Source: a virus. Taken from it: DNA of 52,582 bases. The position numbers were made by a program, and so were the translations under genes. Of the stretch, positions 26,195 through 49,055 are shown piece after piece. Numbering within the stretch: the first letter of the stretch is position 1; the number at the start of each line of letters is the position of its first letter. The stretch lies in IMG/VR virus record IMGVR_UViG_3300042924_001928, positions 1 through 52,582 of that record. The stretch is one strand, 5' to 3'. The notes below the pieces were generated by a model. It made no database searches and was not told the origin of the DNA. It worked only from the letters and a program-made list of their open reading frames with translations.

Positions 26195-29100
26195 TTACCG
26201 CTTTGATTTTAAGTAGTCAAGCGGAGATTTCAAAGCGGGAGGTGGAAGATCCTTTTTCCCGGTTGAACGGGCACGGGTTCTAATCTCGTGCATCATCTTG
26301 TACAGCTTGTCGGTTCCGGCCTTAGTAGACCCGTTTCCGAGGGCAGAAACCACATCTGCCGGAAAAACAAATTCCCCGTCTGCCAGCATGGCCGGGATGT
26401 CATCTGACTGGCCATCGCCCTCACCGGCAACGTGCTTGCCATCCCGGAAATCCTCGCGCCCCTTGGCCATTTTGGGCAAACCGCCTTGTTTTGCCATCAG
26501 AGGCAGCGTCATGCCGCCCTGCGCCATCAGCGGTGCAACATACCCACCCTGAGCAAAGCCAACCGGCCCAGATCCGCCCAGGATGTCATCAATCGAGTCT
26601 TCCTTGCCGTAGGAGTAGTACGAGCCCTGCTCAGACTTTGCCGCTTCTTCAGGGTCAAAACCACCACCAGAAAGCACCCTAGCTAGGGTTCCGAGTCCGG
26701 AAAGGTCTTCTTCCTTGGAGCCCATACGCTCTTTAAGGATTGACGCCAGACGCGGGTCAATATTTTCAATCATGGCTTCTCTTTCCATTTCTTCTTGAAT
26801 ATCTTTGACTCGCTCCAGCGGGTCCAGCTTTTTCTCGCCAGTAACGAATGATCTCAACATCTGGGGTTTGATGCCAGTGATATCTCCGGCACCAAATCCG
26901 CCCAACATCAATTGAGATGCGGACATTTTCTGAGGCTTCTTTTTCTTTTCTTTCTCTTTCTCTTTTTTCTTCTTCTTATCTTCGTCGGTCTCGTCTTCCT
27001 CAGTGACTTCCTCCACAGGATCAACGGGTCCTACTGGATCGATCGTCTCAATGTTTGTGACCGGGTTGGTGGTGGTGCTGATAACCGTATTGGTATTCAG
27101 GTCCGTCACCACGGTCGTTTGGGTATTGGTATTTACGTCGGTATTGGTGGTCGTCTGAGTGTTGGTGTTTGTGTCCGTCGTGGTTTGAGTCGTGACCTGA
27201 CCATTTGAGTTCGTCGTGGTCTCTGTCGTAACCCCGGTGTTGTTGTTCACCGTGGTCTGAGTGGTGACGTTGGTATCGGTATTGGTCTGAGTCGTGGTTT
27301 GCGTGTTGGTATTGGTATCAGTCGTCGTCTGAGTGTTCGTGTTGGTGTTCGTGTCAGTCGTCGTCTGGGTCGTGGTGCCAGTGTTGTTGTTGACCGTCGT
27401 TTGGGTCGTCGTGCCCGTGTTGGTGTCGGTCGATGTATTGGTCTGGGTGTTGTTGTTGGTATCCGTGGTCGTGGCCGTATTCACGCCCGTGTTGCTGTTG
27501 GACGTGGTTTCGGTCGTTGTGCCGGTTGTCGGGTTGGTTGACGTCTGAGTCGTTGTGCCAGTTGTGGCGTCCGTGGTCGCCGTCGTTTCCGCGCCGGTGT
27601 TGGCGTTGGTCGATGAGGCCGTTGTTGTCCCCGTCGTGTTATTGGTTGTCGACTCAGTCCTGGTGCCGGTATTGGCGTTCGTGTCGATATTGGTCGTCGT
27701 GTTGGTCGCGTCGTTGTTGATCGTGGTCGTGGTATCACCAGCGCCGCTGACCGTTGTCGACGTAGACCCGGCATCCGATGCGGTGCCAGCCGTCTTCCCA
27801 AGAGACGAAAGATTCGACAAGTCACCCACCGTGATGGGTTTGTTGTCAGCATTGAACCCAATGAAGATGTCCGGAGCTACATAAACCTTTCCGTTCACCC
27901 CGGAACCGGTCACCGACGACCCAATGAAGTCGCCCAACGTCACAGCGTTACCGCTCTGATCCTTGCCAACAGCGATGTTCAGGTCGTTGATCTTTAGGCC
28001 GCCGGTCGTGGCAAGGTTGTTGACAACCTGCTCGGCCACCGCGGTATTGGCCACGTTTTGGGCCTGCTCCGGGCTCATACCTGAGGCGGTCATGGCCGTG
28101 ACAATGTCGGAGCCTGCCGCCTTCAGATCCACGCCTGGGCGCAGCGAAGAGTTGATTGCGCTGGTCAGAGCCGCAGCCTGATTGGGATCTGTGGTCGTGG
28201 AGGTAATGATCTCCGTAGTGGCATCGCCAGCACGAGAAATCTCCGAGACCACCGTGATGGTTCCCACGGCCTTACCCGCCACCACGGAACCTACCGTGCC
28301 TTGAGTCATCGCCTTGTTTAGATCGATCGTGCCGGTCGCAAAGTAATCCGACATGGCCGATGCGGCAAACTCTTCCGGATATTCGGTAACAGCCTCTTTG
28401 GTGGCCGCCTTGCCGGTTTCTTTTGCCACTACCTTAGCGCCTGTATCGGCCGCCCCGGTTGACACGCTTCCTGCTCGCTTGATCCACGGCATGTCAGCCA
28501 CGGGGCCAAGCACAGACGCAACAGCACCAGCACCAGCGGCCGACTTCTGCGCGGCAGTGTGGGCGTCGGCCTCACTCATGCCTGCATCAACGGCTGCCTT
28601 CTTGGTGTCGTTGTAGTTAGCGCCGCCAGCTTCCCAGGCGTTCATAAAGGCGTCAGCACCAAGGGCCAACAGCTTGCCGCCGTACTTCAGAGCGGCCGCA
28701 CCAGTAAGCAAAGGCACGCCCTCTTCAAAGACCTCGTTAGCACCCAGGGTCAAGATGGCCGAGGGGTTGTCCCACAAAGCCCTGCCCAGTTCGATGAACT
28801 TGTTGTCGAAGCCCTCAACCTTGGCCACTCGGTCCATCACGTTCTTTTCAGCGCCGATGAGGTATTCGCCCATGCGATCGCTACCCCAGTTCTTCATGTC
28901 ATTCGCAATCCGAACAATGCCGCTGTTCTTATCGATGACATTGACAGCCTGGAGGCCGCCAGCCATGTTTTCGAGGAAATTACCGCCTGCGCGAGTAACA
29001 GTTCCAATAGTCTTGACGACCGGGTCGATTAGCTGCTTGCTGATGCCGTCTCCGACGACAACATAGTCACCCAGAAGACCTCCGGCCAACAGGAAGTCAT

Positions 29101-31945
29101 CCATCGTGCCAAACGTGGTCGCTGGCGTAGATGTGTCAACCGCAGAGGTATTGAGCTTAGAGAAAGCATCTGCCGCAGCTTTAGAGTCGTATCCCGCGTA
29201 TGAGCCGCGTCCAGCACCAGCGCCAAGTTGGGCGTATCGAGCCTGATCAGATGCGGCGGCCAGAGACGGATTTTCTTCCCGGGTGTCAGTGCTGTACTTC
29301 TTGCCGTTCCACTCAAAGATCTGGCCTGGGCCAAGCTCTTTACGGGCTAGGCTGTAGGCATCTCCGAAGTTCTTCGCCGCAGCAATATTGGCGGCCGTAG
29401 CTTGGGCAGCAACCTCTTGAGCAGTCGCGCTCATGGCGTAGGTCTTGCCGCCGTATGTGAAGTTGGTAAATCCACGAGCGCCAGCCAGGGCGGCAGCCTC
29501 TTCGAGAGAGTCTGCGTCAGCGTTACCAATGTTCAGAGTGTTGCGAGCCGTGGCATCCGAGATCGCCCTGTCCAGATTGCCAAACTCAGTGTCCACCGCC
29601 GTGACGCCGCTCATGATGTCGGCGGCGGTGTTTCCGGTGGTGGCAGTTGTTTTGGTATCTGTTCCGCTAGATGCACTAACGTTGGTCACCGCATTCGCAG
29701 CATTCAGAGCCTCATCTTCAGTGGCTCCAGCATTGATGGCCGCGATGTACGTAGCCTCGCCAAGATCTGTTGCTCCGGAATCCGTGATGCTGCCGTTGGT
29801 CACGTTATTGACAAGCGTAGTGACCGTATCCGTGTTGTTCAGATTGTTTGCGGCATTGATCGTCGAGCCAAGATTCATGATGCCGTTAGTCAAGGCACCA
29901 ATATTCCCGGACTGAGCGGCCTGAACGATTTGAGCAGCCGCACCAGCGGTCTGAAGATCGGCACTATTGGTCAGCTTGCCAGCGCCAGTCAAGACGGCGG
30001 CGAAATCGCCACGGGACGCAGCATCCGCAACATTTAGAGCCGTACCGACGTCAGCCAGCGAGATGGTGTCGGTGAGCATCGTAGAGCCCGCCGCTGCTGC
30101 CACATTGGGGTTGGCCAACAGAGTAGACACCACCGCGGTGACATTGCCTTTATCGATGGCATTGGCCACATTCAAAGCGGTAGCAACGTTGGTATAGCCA
30201 CCGGCGCCAGCCAAAGATGCCAGGGCGCCAATTACGTTGCCCTGCTTGGCAGCCAAGGCGGCGTTTGCAATCATGGCAAACGGCTGCACGCCCGGGATGA
30301 AGGAAGCAACAGTCAGGACGGCCGACAGAGCGCCCATGGCGCCGCTTTCTCTGCCGTAAGTGGTGAACTCAGGCTTGCCGGTCGTTGGGTTGATGATGAT
30401 CTGATACTCGGTCGACCCCTTGCCGGTGGCCGTTCCTCCGATATTGATCATCAACGGGTCAAGACCATTGATCACCTGAGTCAATACATTGTCGCCAGCG
30501 TATAGAGCCTTGCCGGAGAGGATGTCGTTGGCGGTCCTCCGGATCGTGGCGCCACCCTCGGCGTCATACGTAGTTTCCGAGGTGATCCGATCGGCCTCGT
30601 CCTTCGTCAGAATCCTAGTGGTGAACCTATCGGGATTGTTGGGGTCGACGATTGTTGCAACGTACTGGCCAGTTGGCTGACCGTTTTCATCAGTCATCTC
30701 CCTAACATCGATGTCAGAGAAAACGTCCTTGACCTTGAGTTGGCTAAGGTCCGTAATGCCCTGATCCATCAGGTTACGGGCCATGTCCAAGATCACCTGC
30801 TCGGCAGCAGACGGGTCCTTTCCAAGGATGCGCTTGGCCTCGTTGAAGTCAAAACCAATGCTCTCGCCCTTGGTTCCAAAAGCTCCGCCTGACAACGATC
30901 CCAGGTTAGGAATGATCTGAGCCGCAAGGGCCAGCAAAGTATTCTTGTCGTACGCCTGCCCGCGGTAGTCGTAGATCTTGTCGGCAGCATTTGGGGCTTC
31001 ACCGTTGGGACCTGTACGCCCTTCATACCGGCCATGAGCCTGCCAATGCTGCGCGGCAAACTCTTCGGGCGACATGTTGGCGGCAGCACCGCTGGTTTGG
31101 TACTCCTGAGCAACATCCGGGTTCTTGTCGAAATACCCGTTCTTGGCCACCACCGCGTTTGCGGTGTTGTTGTTGGCGGCCGTATTGACGTTGGCGCTCG
31201 CAAGACCGGACACCACGTTATCAGTGGTTTGTCCCGTAGAAGCCGCTAAATTGTTAACGCTGACATCGCCTGCGCGTACAGAGTCAGCAAGATTGCGGAC
31301 GTTTTCATCAACCGTCGTGGTGTTGGAAAGATTCCCTCCGGTCGTCAACTGGGTGGTTGCGTTTGAGAGATTTGACGCTGCACCAGTAGTGACCGCACCG
31401 GTAGCGGCAGTAATCGCCCCGGCGGCGTCTCCGGTAGTTGCTCCGGTAGTTGCCCCGGTTGCACCAGTTTCGGCGCCGGTCGTCAATCCGGTTGTTGCTC
31501 CAGTTGTTGCTCCCGCAAGAGTTCCCGACGTTGAACCCGCCGCAACATTCCCGGTGGCGGCATCCAGTGCCGACGTGGATGATGCCGTTGAGTCTTGTTG
31601 CGTGAATCCCCTGCCCGGATTGAGAAGAGCATCAACAGCGTCCAGGCCCATGCCGGTAGCTCTAGCGATGTCTTGATTGCTTACGCCGTACTGATTGGCT
31701 GCCTGAGTTAGGTTCGCCGCTCTCTGGATGTCCGTCATGTCCTGGTTGGCCAGGACGTTGTTGACGTAGTTATTGATGTTGGTGAAGTACTGATCTTCTC
31801 CAATTCCACCCGCGCTGGTCGCAGTTTGATACCCCGAAGAACCCAACGGGGACGTGTACACAGACCCATCATCGAAGGTCTGACTATCGCTGTAGTCAGT
31901 GTCTTCAAAATCAAGGTAGTAGCGACGCTGCGACGGAAGTGCCAT
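26195..31945 (-). CDS. 1,916-residue repeat-rich virion protein
   Basis: The largest gene. Seen in order: acidic N-terminus; two short helical motifs of one kind (SNQDIARATGMGLDAVDALL and VNNLAASTGQTTDNVVSGL); a Thr/Gly/Ala tract (~130-205); a DVA/EGR module (~270-310: FDKNPDVAQEYQ, HWQAHGRYEGR); hydrophobic Ala-rich helices (~530-700); a long middle with further amphipathic helices (~1000-1250); a Thr/Asn tract (~1400-1630); a Glu/Asp then Lys run (~1635-1670); and a conserved-type C-terminus with AQGG repeats, GEGDGQSDDIPAMLADGEF and SALGNGSTKAG. It sits among ejection-type genes. Tail, tape-measure-like or ejected roles are all possible. Confidence 0.6.
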   Translation of the reverse strand: MALPSQRRYYLDFEDTDYSDSQTFDDGSVYTSPLGSSGYQTATSAGGIGEDQYFTNINNYVNNVLANQDMTDIQRAANLTQAANQYGVSNQDIARATGMGLDAVDALLNPGRGFTQQDSTASSTSALDAATGNVAAGSTSGTLAGATTGATTGLTTGAETGATGATTGATTGDAAGAITAATGAVTTGAASNLSNATTQLTTGGNLSNTTTVDENVRNLADSVRAGDVSVNNLAASTGQTTDNVVSGLASANVNTAANNNTANAVVAKNGYFDKNPDVAQEYQTSGAAANMSPEEFAAQHWQAHGRYEGRTGPNGEAPNAADKIYDYRGQAYDKNTLLALAAQIIPNLGSLSGGAFGTKGESIGFDFNEAKRILGKDPSAAEQVILDMARNLMDQGITDLSQLKVKDVFSDIDVREMTDENGQPTGQYVATIVDPNNPDRFTTRILTKDEADRITSETTYDAEGGATIRRTANDILSGKALYAGDNVLTQVINGLDPLMINIGGTATGKGSTEYQIIINPTTGKPEFTTYGRESGAMGALSAVLTVASFIPGVQPFAMIANAALAAKQGNVIGALASLAGAGGYTNVATALNVANAIDKGNVTAVVSTLLANPNVAAAAGSTMLTDTISLADVGTALNVADAASRGDFAAVLTGAGKLTNSADLQTAGAAAQIVQAAQSGNIGALTNGIMNLGSTINAANNLNNTDTVTTLVNNVTNGSITDSGATDLGEATYIAAINAGATEDEALNAANAVTNVSASSGTDTKTTATTGNTAADIMSGVTAVDTEFGNLDRAISDATARNTLNIGNADADSLEEAAALAGARGFTNFTYGGKTYAMSATAQEVAAQATAANIAAAKNFGDAYSLARKELGPGQIFEWNGKKYSTDTREENPSLAAASDQARYAQLGAGAGRGSYAGYDSKAAADAFSKLNTSAVDTSTPATTFGTMDDFLLAGGLLGDYVVVGDGISKQLIDPVVKTIGTVTRAGGNFLENMAGGLQAVNVIDKNSGIVRIANDMKNWGSDRMGEYLIGAEKNVMDRVAKVEGFDNKFIELGRALWDNPSAILTLGANEVFEEGVPLLTGAAALKYGGKLLALGADAFMNAWEAGGANYNDTKKAAVDAGMSEADAHTAAQKSAAGAGAVASVLGPVADMPWIKRAGSVSTGAADTGAKVVAKETGKAATKEAVTEYPEEFAASAMSDYFATGTIDLNKAMTQGTVGSVVAGKAVGTITVVSEISRAGDATTEIITSTTTDPNQAAALTSAINSSLRPGVDLKAAGSDIVTAMTASGMSPEQAQNVANTAVAEQVVNNLATTGGLKINDLNIAVGKDQSGNAVTLGDFIGSSVTGSGVNGKVYVAPDIFIGFNADNKPITVGDLSNLSSLGKTAGTASDAGSTSTTVSGAGDTTTTINNDATNTTTNIDTNANTGTRTESTTNNTTGTTTASSTNANTGAETTATTDATTGTTTQTSTNPTTGTTTETTSNSNTGVNTATTTDTNNNTQTNTSTDTNTGTTTQTTVNNNTGTTTQTTTDTNTNTNTQTTTDTNTNTQTTTQTNTDTNVTTQTTVNNNTGVTTETTTNSNGQVTTQTTTDTNTNTQTTTNTDVNTNTQTTVVTDLNTNTVISTTTNPVTNIETIDPVGPVDPVEEVTEEDETDEDKKKKKEKEKEKKKKPQKMSASQLMLGGFGAGDITGIKPQMLRSFVTGEKKLDPLERVKDIQEEMEREAMIENIDPRLASILKERMGSKEEDLSGLGTLARVLSGGGFDPEEAAKSEQGSYYSYGKEDSIDDILGGSGPVGFAQGGYVAPLMAQGGMTLPLMAKQGGLPKMAKGREDFRDGKHVAGEGDGQSDDIPAMLADGEFVFPADVVSALGNGSTKAGTDKLYKMMHEIRTRARSTGKKDLPPPALKSPLDYLKSKR
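27060..27730. repeat. Degenerate Thr/Asn-coding tandem tract
   Basis: About 670 bp in which the given strand is made almost only of GT-rich triplets (gtcgtg, gttggt, gtattg). It encodes tandem variants of N-T-G-T-T-T-x-T-T and T-D-T-N-T-N-T-Q-T-T units of about 9-14 residues. Units are similar but not identical at DNA level, so it is a diverged array. It lies inside the 1,916-residue gene. Confidence 0.8.
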
Positions 31946-35817: not shown

Positions 35818-36453
35818 TTAGGAATCCACAGCGATTGCCTGACGGTCAGCCACGCGCAACTTGTCCTCGGCCATCAAGGTTTGCATGATGGCTTCGTACT
35901 GCTGCTGCCACATCGGGATGCGGTCGTCGTTCTTGAGGAACGGCATGGCCTGCAACAGGGTGCCGTATAGCAGCGCCTGAGGGGCGTAAATGGTGAACCA
36001 GTTGGTCTGGTTGGCCGACTCCAGCGGCTGGATGCGCTCGTAGTACAGGACCTCGAAGTTATAGGCGGCGTTCGGAGTAGGTGCCACCATCCAGTGCGTG
36101 TAGTCGTAATCGCAATAAAACTTTGGCACATCCTCAGAGGCGGGATCTGGCCAATACTCACGCAGATACTCGTATTTGCGAAGCAGCACCGGATATCTCT
36201 TACCGGCCACCGTGATATTCATAGACACGGTTTTGTGCCAGCGAGCGGGCTTATCGATGATGTTGGTGCCCTGAACCATGGCGCTGGTCTGCACCGTCAG
36301 GTTACCGAGAAACTTGATCTGGCTGGCAATAACCTGCTCGGCCAGCATGATGAACAGAGGGATCTTTTCGAGGGTGGCTTGGTCCGTGCGCTCCAGGTAG
36401 GTGCGAACGTTCTCTACCAAGCTGTCATAGGTCATTACGGCCGCAGCAGTCAT
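35818..36453 (-). CDS. Head-to-tail adaptor (P22 gp4-like)
   Basis: 211 residues from the ATG that overlaps the upstream stop (TGATG), with AAGG seven bases before it. Typical features: MTYDSLVENVRTYLERTDQ at the start, a helical LPLF-type segment (IPLFIMLAEQVIASQIKFLG), then strands with HKTVSMNITVAGKRYPVLLR, FYCDYDYTHWMVAPTP, FEVLYYERI, and C-terminal helices. P22 gp4 binds below the portal ring. The connector protein at 47,985-49,055 has a related layout, so the two may act as sequential adaptors. Confidence 0.7.
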   Translation of the reverse strand: MTAAAVMTYDSLVENVRTYLERTDQATLEKIPLFIMLAEQVIASQIKFLGNLTVQTSAMVQGTNIIDKPARWHKTVSMNITVAGKRYPVLLRKYEYLREYWPDPASEDVPKFYCDYDYTHWMVAPTPNAAYNFEVLYYERIQPLESANQTNWFTIYAPQALLYGTLLQAMPFLKNDDRIPMWQQQYEAIMQTLMAEDKLRVADRQAIAVDS

Positions 36454-36845
36454 CACCACACCTTCTTCTTGATCGACTCAGGCTGGGGTACGTACTGTTT
36501 CCCTTGCCTCAAACCCTCTCGCTTGGCTCTGGTAGTTGCCGCGTATTCCGAAGGTGTTAGCTTCTCTCTTGCTGCTTTGGGCAAGTACCTTTCGCCAGTA
36601 GCTTTAGGACCCTGAGTGGATGGCTTCCCAGATTTTGTACCCCAATCTTCCTGCGTCCACTTTGAGAGTGAATTATCGGCCTTTTTAGGCCCTTTGTAAC
36701 CTCCCCCAGAAGACTTGTACTTCTGAGTTGCAAGTTGAGCCTTGCGTGCGCTCCACTGCCCTGGTTTTCCACCCTTATCGGAGGCTTTGACCTGAGAAAC
36801 TATTCGCTTCCACTTGGCCGGATCTGACTTGGTCGCTGAACTCAT
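36453..36845 (-). CDS. DUF5872-type basic protein
   Basis: 130 residues, strongly basic. It has KGGKPGQWSARKAQLATQKY, GGGYKGPKKADNSLSKWTQE, then ATGERYLPKAAREKLTPSEY and KREGLRQGKQYVPQP, the order of the DUF5872 family, seen in large-virus and phage proteins. Function unknown; Lys/Arg/Gly content suits DNA or capsid-interior binding. Overlaps the adaptor start. Confidence 0.75.
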   Translation of the reverse strand: MSSATKSDPAKWKRIVSQVKASDKGGKPGQWSARKAQLATQKYKSSGGGYKGPKKADNSLSKWTQEDWGTKSGKPSTQGPKATGERYLPKAAREKLTPSEYAATTRAKREGLRQGKQYVPQPESIKKKVW

Positions 36846-40457: not shown

Positions 40458-41114
40458 TTAGGCAAACTTTGTCTGCGAGGCAAGCACGGTAAAAGTGGCG
40501 CTGCCAGTCTTGATGATGGTGTACGAGTACACATCAATACTGCTGGCATTACCTGCCGTTGGCGCCGTGCCGCCCTGCCACTTCGGAGTGACGCTTGATC
40601 CGTCTACCTGAACCGCGTTGTTGTAGTAAGCGGTGCCGCCCTGAGTAACCAAGAAAGCAACCGTCACACTCTGCCCAGTTGACATAGCAGTGTTTAGGCT
40701 TGTGCCGCTTGAGGCGCGGAAGTTCACGGTCCAGTTGGCAGATGCGTTAGAGGTGTAATACAGCACCGACTGAGTGGTCACGTCGTAGTTGATCGTGCCA
40801 GTGGCTGCCGTGGCACTGACGGTGCAAACCTCGGCGGCGTCGTTCAGAACTACGGCCAGAGCACTGGCGGAGCCGCTAAAGGTCTGAGTGGCCGTGAATG
40901 TGTTGGTCGAAGACGTAGATGGGATACCAGCGCCGGACAAGCTCGTTGCCCCCGTTCCGCCAGATCCGACAGGAAGAGGGGCAGCCAGGGTCACGCCGCC
41001 CGCGGCGACTGTTAGCTTGGTAGATCCACCGGCTTGTAGGCCCAACTCACCAGAAGCATCCCCAGTGATGATTGCGCCACCAACAACGGTATCTGCATTG
41101 ATGAGTGTGGTCAT
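40458..41114 (-). CDS. Tail fibre paralogue A (anchor plus head domain, no glycine-rich part)
   Basis: 218 residues. N-terminal ~60: GAIITGDASGELGLQAGGST, KLTVAAGGVTLAAPLPVGSG, GTGATSL. Then a ~150-residue beta domain (LYYTSNASANWTVNFRASSG, VTVAFLVTQGGTAYYNNAVQ, VYSYTIIKTGSATFTVLASQ). Both parts align clearly with residues 1-230 of the protein at 42,728-44,209, but this one stops where that one enters its glycine-rich region. Likely a fibre subunit. Confidence 0.7.
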   Translation of the reverse strand: MTTLINADTVVGGAIITGDASGELGLQAGGSTKLTVAAGGVTLAAPLPVGSGGTGATSLSGAGIPSTSSTNTFTATQTFSGSASALAVVLNDAAEVCTVSATAATGTINYDVTTQSVLYYTSNASANWTVNFRASSGTSLNTAMSTGQSVTVAFLVTQGGTAYYNNAVQVDGSSVTPKWQGGTAPTAGNASSIDVYSYTIIKTGSATFTVLASQTKFA

Positions 41115-42727: not shown

Positions 42728-44209
42728 TTACAAATTACCAGTTCTTGTCGAAGGATAAGCGCGAGTTTGACCCGGCCAAATAATTCGCACAGCACCTTTG
42801 CCACCGGCAGAATTTGCTGCTCCGCCGCCGCCGTAATCGCCGCCCGTACTTTGGCCCGCGCCGGTTCCCCAAGATCCGTTGCCGCCCGCCGCAACACCAG
42901 TTGCAGAAGCTGCGCCGCCCGCGCCGCCTGTGCCGTAGCTTGGAATGCTTCCGCCTGCGCCGCCCGCGCCGCCATACAAACTTGCGCCACCACCGCCAGC
43001 GCCGTACGTATACCCGCCATCTAAATACCCGCCAGCCCCGCCTCCGCCAGCGCCCGTTCCTCCGGCCGTACCGTTGGGTCCTCCCCCATACGCGGCAGCT
43101 GCACGCCCCGCAGATCCGCCGCTGCCACCGTAACCACCAGCGCCGCCTCCAGGGCCGTTGTTATCTCCTGGTTGAGCCCCGCCAGATCCGCCGCCGGTGT
43201 AAGTTCCGCTAGGACTTCCTGGGAGGTAAGTTCCGCCCGCACCTGTTGCCCTGGTTTGCAAACCGCCATCAAGAGTGATGTAAGAATCGCCTCCCGCGTT
43301 TCCAGGGTAAGAGGTAGTAGCGGCTCCGCCACCACCAACAACAACTGTATAGCTGTTTCCTGGAGTAACGGGTGCAAAATTTCTATAAGCTAGGCCACCG
43401 GCAGCGCCACCATAAGCGCCAGAAGATCCGCCGCCAATACAAACCACGGCAACCTGGGTTACACCGGCAGGAGCAACCCATGTGTATGTTCCAGCAGTTG
43501 TGTATTCAACTTGGCCGGGTGCTGGCAAATTGGTGTAATACTTCCAGCTTCCTGTCACATAAAAAGTACCGCTTCCAGTTTTTACAATTTTGTAAGAATA
43601 AATATCGACAACGTTTATGTTTGTATTTGTTGGGATCTGGCTATTTTCCCAATTTACGGTAGTAGAAACTCCATCGATAGTGAACGCGGTTTGATAATAC
43701 GCGGTTGTTCCGTTCGTGTTGTAAAAAGACACTTCAACGGCCTGATTTACAGCCATGAAAGAATTCAAACTTTGCCCGCTAGTACCTCTAATATTTAGGG
43801 TGAAGTTTGAGGATGCGTTCGATGTGTAGTAAAGCGTTGAATAAGTTGCCGCGTCAAAATTGATTGTCCCGCCCGCTGCGGTTGCACTAACAGAGGCGGG
43901 CTGCAAAAGACTTGCAGGAGGAGACGCGCTTGTCCATGTAGTCCCGTTGGAAGTCAGAACGTTTCCACTTGATCCAGGCGCAACTGTTTGAATTGCTGAT
44001 GTTCCATTGCCAAGCAAAACATTATTTGCCGTTAATGACGCGACCCCTGTTCCTCCAGAAGCAACTGGCAAAGCAGAAGCAAGTGTTACCCCCGTGGAGC
44101 TAACCGTCAGCTTGGTAGAGCCCGAAGACTGCAACTCAAGATTGCCAGAGGTGTCTCCAGACGAAACTAGCGCGGTGCCGGATGTGGTGCCTGCGGAAAT
44201 TGAACTCAT
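42728..44209 (-). CDS. Glycine-rich tail fibre adhesin, paralogue B
   Basis: 493 residues. N-terminus 1-75 parallels paralogue A (GNLELQSSGSTKLTVSSTGV, LPVASGGTGVASL). Next is a shaft module shared with the protein at 41,405-42,295 (LTANNVLLGNGTSAIQTVAP), then a domain matching paralogue A. From ~265 to ~470 it is 50% or more Gly with Ala, Ser and Tyr (GGGGAGGYLDGGYTYGAGGG), as in polyglycine-II adhesin tips like T-even gp38. It ends GAVRIIWPGQTRAYPST, a usual end for such phage adhesins. Probably binds the host receptor. Confidence 0.75.
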   Translation of the reverse strand: MSSISAGTTSGTALVSSGDTSGNLELQSSGSTKLTVSSTGVTLASALPVASGGTGVASLTANNVLLGNGTSAIQTVAPGSSGNVLTSNGTTWTSASPPASLLQPASVSATAAGGTINFDAATYSTLYYTSNASSNFTLNIRGTSGQSLNSFMAVNQAVEVSFYNTNGTTAYYQTAFTIDGVSTTVNWENSQIPTNTNINVVDIYSYKIVKTGSGTFYVTGSWKYYTNLPAPGQVEYTTAGTYTWVAPAGVTQVAVVCIGGGSSGAYGGAAGGLAYRNFAPVTPGNSYTVVVGGGGAATTSYPGNAGGDSYITLDGGLQTRATGAGGTYLPGSPSGTYTGGGSGGAQPGDNNGPGGGAGGYGGSGGSAGRAAAAYGGGPNGTAGGTGAGGGGAGGYLDGGYTYGAGGGGASLYGGAGGAGGSIPSYGTGGAGGAASATGVAAGGNGSWGTGAGQSTGGDYGGGGAANSAGGKGAVRIIWPGQTRAYPSTRTGNL

Positions 44210-44219
44210 TTATAGCTCC

Positions 44220-44543
44220 TTAAATCACAACCCAGCGTTGACCGCTCGTGACAGTCACGGTTACGCCGCTGGCCACTGTGACCGGACCAACAGAGAACCC
44301 GTTTGTTCCGCTTGGGAACGAATAGCTTTCTGTCGCCGTCGTGGTATTCGTAATGATGGCACCGCCAGCCTCTCCACCGCCACTGGAAAACTGCTGAACC
44401 GTGCCACCGGAATCCTCATAGTAGAGGATGCCATCGGCGATATTGATCGCAAGCTCACCGGGCAGAAGATTTCCAGCCGTCGGAACTGCTCCAGGGGTGG
44501 TGCTGTGATATAGCTGAAGTGGGGTATAGCCAGCCTGTGCCAT
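44220..44543 (-). CDS. Short tail-fibre-like protein
   Basis: 107 residues. MAQAGYTPLQLYHSTTPGAV, PTAGNLLPGELAINIADGIL, YYEDSGGTVQQFSSGGG and a C-terminal strand set (VTVASGVTVTVTSGQRWVVI) are the pattern of small, trimeric fibre-base proteins that occur in podovirus and myovirus tail clusters. It overlaps the large fibre gene by one base. May act as a connecting or capping subunit. Confidence 0.7.
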   Translation of the reverse strand: MAQAGYTPLQLYHSTTPGAVPTAGNLLPGELAINIADGILYYEDSGGTVQQFSSGGGEAGGAIITNTTTATESYSFPSGTNGFSVGPVTVASGVTVTVTSGQRWVVI

Positions 44544-47500
44544 CAGAATGTTCCTCCAGAAATTCCTGACGTCGCCACGATATATGACGTCGTCAAAGTA
44601 TTAGACGATGGGTTGTAGGTTAGATTCGAGTCGACCTCAATCCCATTGTTTCCAGACGTTGTATCAACGAACGTCGGATAAAATGTAGCATTTACAGATG
44701 TCGCCGTGGTGGCCACATTGGTGGCATTCGTAGCGTTGGAGGCATTGGTCGCAGTGCCAACAGTAATCGACGCCGGATCAGTCCACGCAGGAGCCGTTCC
44801 GCTGGACGTCAGAATCCGATTAGTCCCTCCGATCGTCAGGCGATCTAGCGTGGTCGTGGTATTTGCATAGAGCAGATCACCCGTCGCGTAGCTGCTGATC
44901 CCAGTTCCGCCATTTATCGCTATCAGGGTGCCTGCCAGCGTGATGGTTCCAGAAGACGTTACGGGACCGCCGCTGGTCGTCAGACCAGTAGTGCCGCCCG
45001 ACACGTCCACAGAAGTCACGGTGCCGGTACCAGCCACATCCCAAGAGAATGCCGACCCGGTCCACTTCAAAAAGTGCCCAGCAGTAACCGGCGCAACGAT
45101 GAATGACGTGGTGCTGGCGCCGGTGTTGTAGACGATCTGGTTAGCCGTGCCGCCAGCCACGTTTGTGGCCGTTGTTGCAGTCGCAGCATTACCGCCAATC
45201 GACAGGCCAGCCGCGGTGCCGGTCAGGTTTGTGCCGGGACCAGAGAAGTCCGTGGTGGCCGTGACCGTAGTTCCGCGCACAGAAGCTGCCGTAGTGGCGC
45301 CAACCGTCGTTCCATCAATCGCCCCACCCGTGATAGCCACAGAGGTGGAGTTTTGGGTCGACATGCTGCCCAGGCCGGTGATGTCCGTATTCGGGATCGA
45401 TGACGAGGCGGTAAGGGCGCTGGTACCTGTTCCCTTGACGTAGCCGGTCAGCGTGGTCGCTCCGGTACCGCCGTGGGCCACATTGAGGGTGCCGCCCAGG
45501 GTGATCGTGCCGCTAACGGTAACGGGCCCTCCGCTCGTGCTCAGACCGGTTGTGCCACCAGAGACATCCACCGAGGTCACGGTGCCGCCAAAAGACGGCG
45601 TGGCCGAGATGGTGATGCCGCCCGAGGTATTGGTGATCGAGACGTTGGTTCCGGCCGTCAGATTGGCCAGCGAATAGCCGGTTCCGTTGCCGATTGCCAG
45701 TTGACCGTTTGCCGGTGTTGCCGTCAGTCCAGTGCCGCCGTAAGCAACCCCAATAGCCGTTGCATTCCAAGTGCCGGTGGTCAACGTACCAAGGCCGGTG
45801 ATGCCGGTATAGGAGCCTGTCAGACGTCCAGAATCAAGCGTCCCGGAAGTGATGTTGCTGGCGTTGGTTGTGTCAGTAGTTGCCGACGGCGCAAGCCCAG
45901 AGACCTGCCCAGAAGTGATCGCAATTGGCGCAGATGCTGCGCTGGTGATCTGACCCTGGGCATTGATATTCAAGGTCAAGGCAGACGACGTCGACCCGTA
46001 AGCCCCGGCACTCACTCCTGTGTTGGAGATGTTGAACGTCGTGGATGGGCTGAGATTTAGTCCGGTTCCGGCGCTATACGTTACCGATGAACTGAACTGG
46101 GCAAACGTGATGGCCGTGGTGCCAAACGTGATCGGGCCAGACGTGGTGCAGGTATACGACTCGCCCGCACCGGTGTTGCCGCTAGTGACAAAGAAGTACG
46201 AGCCCTGGCCGAGCTTGGTAGAAGAGTTTGCGCCATAGGTGTCGGTATCTGACGTGCGAGTCAGTACCCAGGCAGTCGAGCCGTTTCCGACTACGCTGAC
46301 CTCATAGACGCCGTTTTCAAATTGATTGGTCTGGTTGTAGACCAGAACGCGGTCGCCAACCATGGCTGTCGGACCATCGGGAGCAAAAGCTGCCAAGGCC
46401 CCGGCATTGGTCAGCGTAGCGCCAACACCAGCCACACCGTTGTTGTACGTCGCGTTCAGGTTGCCGGTTGTGTTCGGCACTTCGTACTTGACGGCAGTGT
46501 GAACATTTAGACCGGCCGCCACCTGCTCATCAACATACTGCTTGTTGACTAGGTCATTCGCATTGGTGGGCAGCGTTGAAATCGTGCCGGTCGTTGTCGC
46601 CACAGACGTGAACGTAGCAGCCGCCGGAGTCGTTCCGCCGATCACCGCGTTGTTAATCGTGGCGCCAGTAATCGCACCGCCGGTGATAGCTACGGAGTTG
46701 GAGTTCTGCGTAGCAATCGTGCCAAGCCCAGAGACATCGGTATGCGGCACCGTTGCCGCGGCCGTCATGGCCGACGTGCCGTTGCCTTTGACGTATCCCG
46801 TCAGAGTAGTGGCGCCCGTGCCTCCATTGGACACGTTGAGCGTGCCGGTCAGTACGATAGAGCCAGTGGTGGGGGACGACGGCGAAAAGCCCGTGGTGCC
46901 CGCGCTAAACGTGTTGACGCCTGTACCAATCGGGAAAGCCTGCCAGGACCCGCCTGCATAGCCCTCAAAAGCCGCCAGATCGCTGTTGTATCGGAATTCA
47001 CCGTTTGACCCAACGGGCTGCTGTGCGGTGGTTCCACCGGGGACCTTAACGGACCCAGTACCAGGAAGCACTGGATTGCTTGCAATACCAATTGTCGGAT
47101 TGCCCGCCTGCCCATCACCATCAGTCACCGCGATCTGGTTGGCCGTACCCGTTACCGTCAAGGCGGCAATCGTGTTGCCCGGACGAAGAGCGAGAACACC
47201 CACGCCGGGGAAGTTGGCCAGAGAGGCTACTGTGCCGGTCAACGAGAAGATGGGATTAGCGCCAGTGCCGTCAGGGTTAGAGATCGACAGGCCGGTGCCG
47301 GACGTAGTCAGGCTGCGCGAGACAACCGTATTGGCCGAGTCCTTGACGATGAAACCGGAAGAGGCTGCGTTCAAGCTGCTGGCCGCGCCGGTCATGCCAA
47401 TACGCAGGAACGACAGCGAGCCGCCATCTGTGAGTTGCAGGCCGGTGTCGACCGACAGATAACGGCTATTTGTTAGGTTGACCTCTTGCGACTGGGTCAC

Positions 47501-47641
47501 AAAGGTCTGATTCAGCGTCGGGCTGTTAGCAATCGCGCCCGTGGTCGTGCGATACGTCCCGCCGTTTTGGACGATGGGTACAAGCTCGGTGCCTGTGATT
47601 GGGCCCGCGGCTGGAAGCTGGGTAATAGTTTGATTGGCCAT
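44543..47641 (-). CDS. Long tail fibre, 1,032 residues, with tandem modules
   Basis: N-terminal anchor MANQTITQLPAAGPITGTEL, VPIVQNGGTYRTTTG also begins the 194-residue protein at 49,470-50,054. The shaft is Thr/Gly/Ser-rich beta with several copies of NGGTGATTLTGYVKGNGTSA and of SVDVSGGTTGLSTSGGPVTV. A distinct module lies at ~370-560 (KQYVDEQVAAGLNVHTAVKY; GDRVLVYNQTNQFENGVYEV), known from many phage fibres. The C-terminus is IVATSGISGGTF. No peptidase or depolymerase motif was recognised. Likely forms the main trimeric host-contact fibre. Confidence 0.75.
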   Translation of the reverse strand: MANQTITQLPAAGPITGTELVPIVQNGGTYRTTTGAIANSPTLNQTFVTQSQEVNLTNSRYLSVDTGLQLTDGGSLSFLRIGMTGAASSLNAASSGFIVKDSANTVVSRSLTTSGTGLSISNPDGTGANPIFSLTGTVASLANFPGVGVLALRPGNTIAALTVTGTANQIAVTDGDGQAGNPTIGIASNPVLPGTGSVKVPGGTTAQQPVGSNGEFRYNSDLAAFEGYAGGSWQAFPIGTGVNTFSAGTTGFSPSSPTTGSIVLTGTLNVSNGGTGATTLTGYVKGNGTSAMTAAATVPHTDVSGLGTIATQNSNSVAITGGAITGATINNAVIGGTTPAAATFTSVATTTGTISTLPTNANDLVNKQYVDEQVAAGLNVHTAVKYEVPNTTGNLNATYNNGVAGVGATLTNAGALAAFAPDGPTAMVGDRVLVYNQTNQFENGVYEVSVVGNGSTAWVLTRTSDTDTYGANSSTKLGQGSYFFVTSGNTGAGESYTCTTSGPITFGTTAITFAQFSSSVTYSAGTGLNLSPSTTFNISNTGVSAGAYGSTSSALTLNINAQGQITSAASAPIAITSGQVSGLAPSATTDTTNASNITSGTLDSGRLTGSYTGITGLGTLTTGTWNATAIGVAYGGTGLTATPANGQLAIGNGTGYSLANLTAGTNVSITNTSGGITISATPSFGGTVTSVDVSGGTTGLSTSGGPVTVSGTITLGGTLNVAHGGTGATTLTGYVKGTGTSALTASSSIPNTDITGLGSMSTQNSTSVAITGGAIDGTTVGATTAASVRGTTVTATTDFSGPGTNLTGTAAGLSIGGNAATATTATNVAGGTANQIVYNTGASTTSFIVAPVTAGHFLKWTGSAFSWDVAGTGTVTSVDVSGGTTGLTTSGGPVTSSGTITLAGTLIAINGGTGISSYATGDLLYANTTTTLDRLTIGGTNRILTSSGTAPAWTDPASITVGTATNASNATNATNVATTATSVNATFYPTFVDTTSGNNGIEVDSNLTYNPSSNTLTTSYIVATSGISGGTF
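45305..45495. repeat. Fibre module repeat, copy 1 (partner at 46,655-46,850)
   Basis: Encodes GGTGATTLTGYVKGTGTSAL through SVAITGGAIDG in the long fibre. It parallels 46,655-46,850 at DNA and protein level over about 190 bp, with scattered changes, mostly at third positions. Confidence 0.7.
46655..46850. repeat. Fibre module repeat, copy 2
   Basis: Encodes GGTGATTLTGYVKGNGTSAM through SVAITGGAITG. Matches the copy at 45,305-45,495. Such direct repeats can recombine to change fibre length or swap modules. Confidence 0.7.
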
Positions 47642-47982
47642 TATGGTGACACCGAAATTCCGTCAAGGTTACCGTTGTTCTCCGGCGTATCGGTGTTGCC
47701 CTCGGTCGAAATTACCCAATCACCTTGGTTATCGGTAACGAGGTTGTTCGGATCGAGTGCCACGCTCACGTCGGGGCGCGGGAAACGGAGGTTGATGCGC
47801 TCTGTCTTACGGGCCGGAAGCCGATAAGGGTCCTTCTGGTCTGCACATCCCTGATCGCACACCTGCAAGCCAGGAAAGTTCGGATCTGGCCTCATCACCG
47901 CATGGGCACGCTTCATCTTGCAGCGATCGCAGATAGCAACCGCTAGCGTGCTCATTCCAAGGGTGTCGAGGAAGATCGGCAT
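47641..47982 (-). CDS. Zinc-ribbon-like structural protein
   Basis: 113 residues. CDRCKMKRAH and LQVCDQGCADQKDPYRLPAR give a CxxC...CxxxC metal-site set, followed by RINLRFPRPDVSVAL. The Cys-Asp-Pro-Tyr-Arg order and RPD end are common in small proteins encoded between connector and fibre genes of podovirus-like genomes. Function unknown; possibly a tail or head-completion part. Lies between the connector gene and the long fibre, overlapping the latter by one base. Confidence 0.65.
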   Translation of the reverse strand: MPIFLDTLGMSTLAVAICDRCKMKRAHAVMRPDPNFPGLQVCDQGCADQKDPYRLPARKTERINLRFPRPDVSVALDPNNLVTDNQGDWVISTEGNTDTPENNGNLDGISVSP

Positions 47983-47984
47983 GG

Positions 47985-49055
47985 TCAGGCGGTATACACA
48001 GAGATGTTAGGAGCAAAGTAGATAGGCGACTTGTCGCGCTCTTCCTGCTCTGCCAGATTCAGATACTTCTCGGCCTGCTGCTCAAGGTACGTAATGCGCT
48101 CAAATGGCACGTTTGGTAGCTCCATGGCCATCTGATGCGCCAGCATGTTCACCACAGCCAGATACCAACGCTGCGGGATCTGCAATTCGTCCGTCAAATC
48201 GCCCACATCCATGACCTGCTTGCTGTACCAGATCGTCATTTGGACGAACGGGTCGCTAGGCACCGGCCAAAGGTAGATTTCCGGCTGCGGAACCGTGCGA
48301 TTGAACCAAAACTGGTACGGCTGGTTGGCCGTGAAGTTCTTATTGGGCAGATTTGTGTAGTCGTCGCGGTTCAGACGGGCCATCGTGATCTCGCGGGAGT
48401 TATTTCCCACGTAAAACTCACGCAAAGCCAGCGTAGTGCCGCCAGAAGCCTGAATTCGGTAGTACTGGACCGTCTGACCAGGGTCGATGTCGTACCAAAG
48501 CCACTGGTTATCGGTCACCACCGTCGTGCCAACGTTCTCTAGGGTGTTCCAGGTGATCCCGTCGGTGGAATATTGGAGGGAAAAGGTCCAAGTAGCACTG
48601 CCACCACCAGCAACGTAAGGCAAAACGCCGATCGAGCCAGCATAAATCGGGTTGTCAGTCCCAAAATCGACCGAAATGTTGCCGTTTGGGCTTGTTTGCT
48701 GGGTGTAGGTGTTGACATCGTTGTCAAATGCGTTGGAAACGACACCACCGGCCGAGGTTGAGTAGTTGCCGGTAGGGCGACTCATGGTCCGATACAGGGC
48801 GTTGAGCACATCGTTGGCCCCAACAGGCAGGGTGTAGATGTATTTGTCGGCAGAGAGGCCAATAACCTCCTTCTTGATCGCCCAATACTGAATGCCGATG
48901 TTGATCAGGTTCGTCAGAACGAAGCCCAACGACTGCCGAGCCGTCAAAAGCTGCTCCGCAGTGAGTTCCTCGGCCAGTTTGCCGCAGCGCCGAGCGCCGT
49001 GGTCAATCAATGTCTGAACATTGAAGACTTGCCCGTATGTGTCTGAGTACGCCAT
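47985..49055 (-). CDS. Head-tail connector/tail tubular-like protein with inserted F5/8C-like (discoidin) domain
   Basis: 356 residues. The outer parts look like a gp4/tail-tubular adaptor: LIDHGARRCGKLAEELTAEQ, SLGFVLTNLINIGIQYWAIK, KYIYTLPVGANDVLNALYRT, then at 220 on REITMARLNRDDYTNLPNK, YQFWFNRTVPQPEIYLWPVP, VVNMLAHQMAMELPNVPF. Residues ~100-218 interrupt it: SNAFDNDVNTYTQQ, ISVDFGTDNPIYAGSIGVLP, WTFSLQYSTDGITWNTLENV, WLWYDIDPGQTVQYYRI, TLALREFYVGN, the order of strands in F5/8C galactose-binding-type modules. The insert may add sugar binding to the tail exterior. Confidence 0.7.
   Translation of the reverse strand: MAYSDTYGQVFNVQTLIDHGARRCGKLAEELTAEQLLTARQSLGFVLTNLINIGIQYWAIKKEVIGLSADKYIYTLPVGANDVLNALYRTMSRPTGNYSTSAGGVVSNAFDNDVNTYTQQTSPNGNISVDFGTDNPIYAGSIGVLPYVAGGGSATWTFSLQYSTDGITWNTLENVGTTVVTDNQWLWYDIDPGQTVQYYRIQASGGTTLALREFYVGNNSREITMARLNRDDYTNLPNKNFTANQPYQFWFNRTVPQPEIYLWPVPSDPFVQMTIWYSKQVMDVGDLTDELQIPQRWYLAVVNMLAHQMAMELPNVPFERITYLEQQAEKYLNLAEQEERDKSPIYFAPNISVYTA

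Follow-up and report, generated by a model that had tools for sequence, protein, structure and literature searches.

An F5/8C-type domain in the dock region of one of two candidate neck adaptors of a short-tailed phage

A preliminary description of a viral DNA record (IMG/VR record IMGVR_UViG_3300042924_001928, positions 1–52,582; all 52,582 nucleotides are referred to here as the window) singled out one gene (47985–49055, minus strand) as encoding a connector or tail tubular protein interrupted at residues ~100–218 by a discoidin (F5/8C)-like domain, and proposed that a ring of twelve such domains at the neck could help the particle dock to surface glycans. The locus raises two questions: whether a lectin-type fold has been placed inside a structural ring protein, and what such a domain would do there.

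The adaptor protein and its insert

The open reading frame starts with ATG and encodes 356 amino acids with zero internal stops. Pfam places F5_F8_type_C (PF00754) at residues 100–205 (E = 9.4e-8; 32.7 bits, above the cut-off of 28.2 bits), the sole F5/8C match in the 52.6-kb record (48441–48758, minus strand), and SU10_adaptor (PF24175) at residues 190–340 (E = 7.3e-6; 27.0 bits, exactly at the cut-off of 27); in PHROGs, residues 218–330 match phrog_12985, whose function is unknown. A phmmer comparison of the whole protein with PDB sequences gave CBM32 as the sole sensible match (E = 0.62), weak matches to antibody light chains being dismissed as chance. With a profile of the insert as query, PDB sequences gave no match at E < 0.01, so the link to lectins comes from Pfam and fold comparison.

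An AlphaFold model built with 63 sequences from the window and related loci (mean pLDDT 79.6) depicts the insert as a beta-sandwich (means per 10-residue block of ~75–93), separate from the adaptor core; its own strands span residues 97–218, and long strands (80–92 and 210–224) bridge the domain to the core. The best PDB fold matches of the modelled insert (Foldseek) are CBM32, CBM62, a pectin-binding CBM, lectinolysin, and factor VIII C2, with E about 1e-5 for CBM32 and factor VIII C2. For the 356-residue protein, the best viral-library match by fold comparison is A0A6J5RSL2 (full length, E = 9e-27), and a 231-residue "tail tubular protein A" is also among the matches. The proposed connector identity is borne out by these fold matches to viral adaptors and by the SU10_adaptor match, and the protein is almost certainly an SU10/T7-type podophage adaptor carrying an inserted F5/8C (CBM32-fold) domain.

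The adaptor core is modelled as a helical bundle with an outward beta "dock" domain. Its N-terminal part (residues 1–92; 48780–49055, minus strand), delimited by AlphaFold and alignment with insertless homologues, comprises helices 13–23 and 33–52 and dock strands 58–92. The inserted domain follows (residues 93–218; 48402–48779, minus strand), placed by Pfam, insertless homologues, AlphaFold, and the PDB fold matches, and the C-terminal part (residues 219–356; 47988–48401, minus strand) supplies the remaining dock, helices 295–312 and 318–340, and an arm, as indicated by AlphaFold and the SU10_adaptor match. A TLPVG motif, previously taken to mark the flank of the insert, does lie in the adaptor core, but in the dock region, ~15–20 residues ahead of the insert.

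The insert contains a predicted calcium loop (residues 108–116, NAFDNDVNT; 48708–48734, minus strand); D111 and T116, together with E213 (48417–48419, minus strand), presumably form a calcium site as in F5/8C/CBM32 domains in general. All three residues are nearly invariant among the closest relatives (group A, below), E213 being replaced by Q in one sequence. The predicted fold and the putative calcium residues resemble those of the CBM32/F5/8C domains of glycosidases, the difference being that the window domain sits in a virion ring protein.

In the model, the insert is located at the tip of the dock hairpin, in the outward fibre-dock part of the adaptor. The beta region is equated with the T7/SU10-type dock on the basis of fold comparison. 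The equivalent beta domain of T7 and SU10 serves as an outward fibre dock in contact with fibres and the portal, and in SU10 it also faces the capsid (PMC6702177, PMC9509320). The window adaptor resembles SU10 gp11, T7 gp11, and KP32 tail tubular protein A in having a helical-bundle core with a beta dock between helices; unlike them, it has an extra F5/8C domain in the dock, and its genome encodes a second paralogue. The head-to-tail adaptor gp83 of phage DEV also has an outward domain of 101 amino acids, inserted after its second helix and before its third, which the authors describe as lectin-binding (PMC10925440); gp83 is a fold match to an insertless relative of the window protein. The DEV domain seems to correspond to the dock, whereas the F5/8C domain is an extra insert within the dock.

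Relatives with and without the insert

Relatives gathered from IMG/VR and GenBank were sorted into three groups. Group A (80 IMG/VR loci retained out of at least 599, plus MW202545 at 64% identity) has the full F5/8C domain. Group B, including Caulobacter phages RW, RLK, KcrB, and GB2A, has proteins of ~328 amino acids whose insert is shorter and weakly recognisable as F5/8C-like; the scores of group B members and of MW202545 lie under the PF00754 cut-off. Roseobacter phages CRP-901 and CRP-902 belong to group C, whose proteins of ~226 amino acids lack exactly residues ~93–218 (48402–48779); this alignment sets the boundaries of the insert. The CRP-901 homologue (226 amino acids; SU10_adaptor, 52.4 bits) can be aligned with the window protein from residue 1 through to its C terminus, the insert being all that is missing, in agreement with the earlier statement that the flanks read as one fold across the insert.

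The long strands that continue from the core into the insert could also suggest that the segment belongs to the adaptor core fold rather than being an inserted domain. However, the insert on its own matches F5/8C, and insertless homologues keep the whole core; in a model of the insertless group C protein (pLDDT 72) the hairpin is closed by a short loop with the whole core present. The homologues and the model refute a core-fold origin for the segment, to which we attach practically no probability. Nearly all significant Foldseek matches of the group C model are adaptor or neck ring proteins, including those of cyanophage A4, VP1, GP4, DEV, KHP30, SU10, the crAss001 rings, N4, KP32, and T7, with moderate TM-scores (~0.5 at best).

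Groups A and B form one clade in a core-only tree (support 100/99). A single gain of the domain, in their common ancestor, is therefore probable; either trimming in group B or extension in group A may account for the difference in length. The gp64 adaptor of Pelagibacter phage HTVC027P (L245:6001–6939) carries an unrelated insertion of ~90 amino acids. That it occupies the same loop as the F5/8C insert was ruled out by a fuller alignment, in which it falls in the dock loop next to that one; the dock region has thus taken in insertions more than once. The adaptor of phage 023Pt_psg01 (L249:229–1326) has an N-terminal extension of ~124 amino acids ahead of the homologous part.

Among 58 distinct group A proteins, mean identity is 76% in the insert and 84% in the core, and insert and core distances are correlated (r = 0.71), indicating that the insert has mostly been inherited along with the core; in one locus (L082) the insert is unusually divergent. 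The pooled dN/dS of the insert is 0.16, compared with 0.06–0.12 for parts of the core, and is highest in insert segments 103–122 and 163–182 (0.26–0.29). The insert is under purifying selection with more relaxed loops, and no positive selection on it was seen in the group A dN/dS analysis.

This selection bears on whether the insert is a leftover of domain shuffling, without a specific function and tolerated at a permissive hairpin tip of the dock. The unrelated insertion in HTVC027P and the ability of group C to manage without any insert are compatible with such a leftover. Purifying selection and the presence of an F5/8C-type insert in all sampled loci of groups A and B count against it, and we consider it improbable.

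A second adaptor in the same genome

The window also encodes a compact SU10-type adaptor of 213 amino acids (35818–36459, minus strand; SU10_adaptor, E = 3.1e-27), which matches the SU10 and Pa223 adaptors by sequence and is nearer than the 356-residue protein to these solved, portal-bound adaptors (SU10, 7z47; Pa223, 9nwi). It is a rival candidate for the place on the portal. Equivalents are found in MW202545, RW, CRP-901, and HTVC027P, and an adaptor of this type accompanies a group A, B, or C protein in 21 of 21 long related records (in five group B records among them, the group A/B/C-type protein falls under the family profile and was located by tblastn). A CRP-901 gene annotated as "chitinase" was tested as the second adaptor of that phage and rejected in favour of gp52. 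Profile-to-profile, the two adaptor families align with E = 6.6e-5 in a single comparison and a probability of 64%, which is consistent with the compact and F5/8C adaptors being paralogues.

The earlier picture of a single neck ring is accordingly modified: the gene does encode an adaptor-type ring protein, but the proposed ring of twelve with F5/8C domains is one of two candidate rings. This gene content suggests two adaptor rings in a podophage group outside the crassviruses. Several paralogous rings have been considered a defining feature of crassviruses, other podoviruses having one ring only (PMC10172136). The ring proteins R1–R4 of crAss001 resemble the window case in being several adaptor-fold paralogues of one podovirus, and in their fold matches; they differ in having no described F5/8C domain (PMC10172136), and in number, the window encoding two apparent paralogues. 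In the Foldseek comparison of the insertless model, the adaptor core is also matched by two chains of the GP4 portal-tail complex that are not identical, which is only a hint that GP4 may be an earlier case of a two-adaptor podophage.

Possible roles of the inserted domain

Ancillary glycan binding is the likeliest of the roles considered, although we give it slightly less than an even chance. It is suggested by the PDB fold matches of the insert, which are mostly to glycan-binding modules, by the near invariance of the likely calcium residues in group A, by the faster evolution of loops 103–122 and 163–182, and by the precedent of the 936 lactococcal phages, whose neck carbohydrate-binding modules (CBMs) attached to host cells when fused to GFP (PMC6669499). 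In HFTV1, galactose-binding-like domains occur in other parts of the virion and have been proposed to serve adhesion (PMC12494034). The 936 neck passage structure is similar in placing such modules, one of them shown to bind host cells, at the neck; it differs in belonging to siphophages, and its CBMs, of other folds, lie at the ends of coiled-coil fibres in a separate, dispensable collar protein (PMC6669499).

The F5/8C adaptor would form a dodecameric neck ring (a copy number inferred from the family) from which the domains would stand out radially next to the bases of the fibres. With a tail this short, these outward domains would fall within reach of long surface polysaccharide and could bind a common host-surface glycan multivalently and with low affinity. 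Such weak binding would steady the particle while the fibres select the receptor, and host range would not be set by the domain. The full arrangement, in which a widespread podophage lineage outside the crassviruses would have a neck of two stacked adaptor rings, one of them showing twelve outward lectin domains binding host-surface polysaccharide and so acting as an adhesion organ, is doubtful.

Several observations argue against glycan binding. The adjoining gene encodes a fibre-like protein of 1032 amino acids (44543–47641, minus strand) in which the N-terminal ~260 residues are usually kept (37 of the 47 group A loci with enough DNA) and the distal part turns over (single distal blocks kept in only 5–18 of the same 47). 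The adaptor with its insert is kept in 79/79 group A loci, and its turnover is therefore not coupled to that of the host-range part. The lack of positive selection, the shorter group B version without the calcium loop, the contacts of the SU10/T7 dock (fibres, portal, or capsid, not cells), and the failure of the insert profile to reach PDB sequences point in the same direction. Conservation without turnover and the shorter form in the Caulobacter-type phages weaken the earlier idea of receptor contact through the ring.

The insert may instead be a docking or bracing module within the virion, a lectin fold reused as a protein-protein scaffold; we regard this as nearly as likely as glycan binding. 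It would enlarge the fibre-dock surface and hold a fibre, collar, or accessory protein, or else brace the ring against the capsid. A docking module would fit the position of the insert within a domain which, in SU10 and T7, makes contact with fibres, the portal, and the capsid (PMC9509320, PMC6702177), its conservation without being swapped along with the fibre tip, and the group B version that lacks the calcium loop. A parallel is found in R4C, whose neck adaptor also has an accessory beta domain, in that case an N-terminal Ig fold of a siphophage, which touches the capsid and which its authors took to be structural (PMC10276861).

Docking or bracing is also favoured by a small Cys-motif protein of 113 amino acids (47641–47982, minus strand) encoded directly downstream of the F5/8C adaptor. 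Its motif is CxxC...CxxxC-like, and it has no Pfam or PHROG match. The gene follows the adaptor in 74/74 group A and 74/75 group B loci (148/149 together) and in 0/74 group C loci, and so co-occurs with the insert; since groups A and B form one clade, the association may also reflect co-inheritance. Retention of the predicted calcium loop in group A tells against a docking module. The N-terminus of the adjoining fibre, found in group A, occurs in only 2/75 group B loci and was rejected as the docked partner common to both groups.

Lectin-like adaptor domains (DEV; PMC10925440), neck CBMs, and multiple rings are each already known; the new element is that, of two apparent adaptor paralogues, one has an F5/8C domain nested in its dock. 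If glycan-binding, this domain would mean that short-tailed phages adhere by more than their fibres and spikes, with a conserved ring that could weakly and generically capture hosts with variable receptors; if structural, it would represent a lectin fold recruited as a scaffold. On either reading, the two-adaptor arrangement predicts a two-ring neck in an abundant phage group, which can be tested directly in cultured relatives on Caulobacter, Roseobacter, and Pelagibacter.

Two further features of the window were observed. A protein of 1916 amino acids (26195–31945, minus strand) has no Pfam or PHROG match, and relatives can be recognised only for the ~70 residues at its C terminus. Two different proteins (42728–44209 and 40458–41114, both minus strand) match phrog_5906 in their C-terminal or middle parts; the fibre genes may thus have a tip domain or chaperone-like domain in common.
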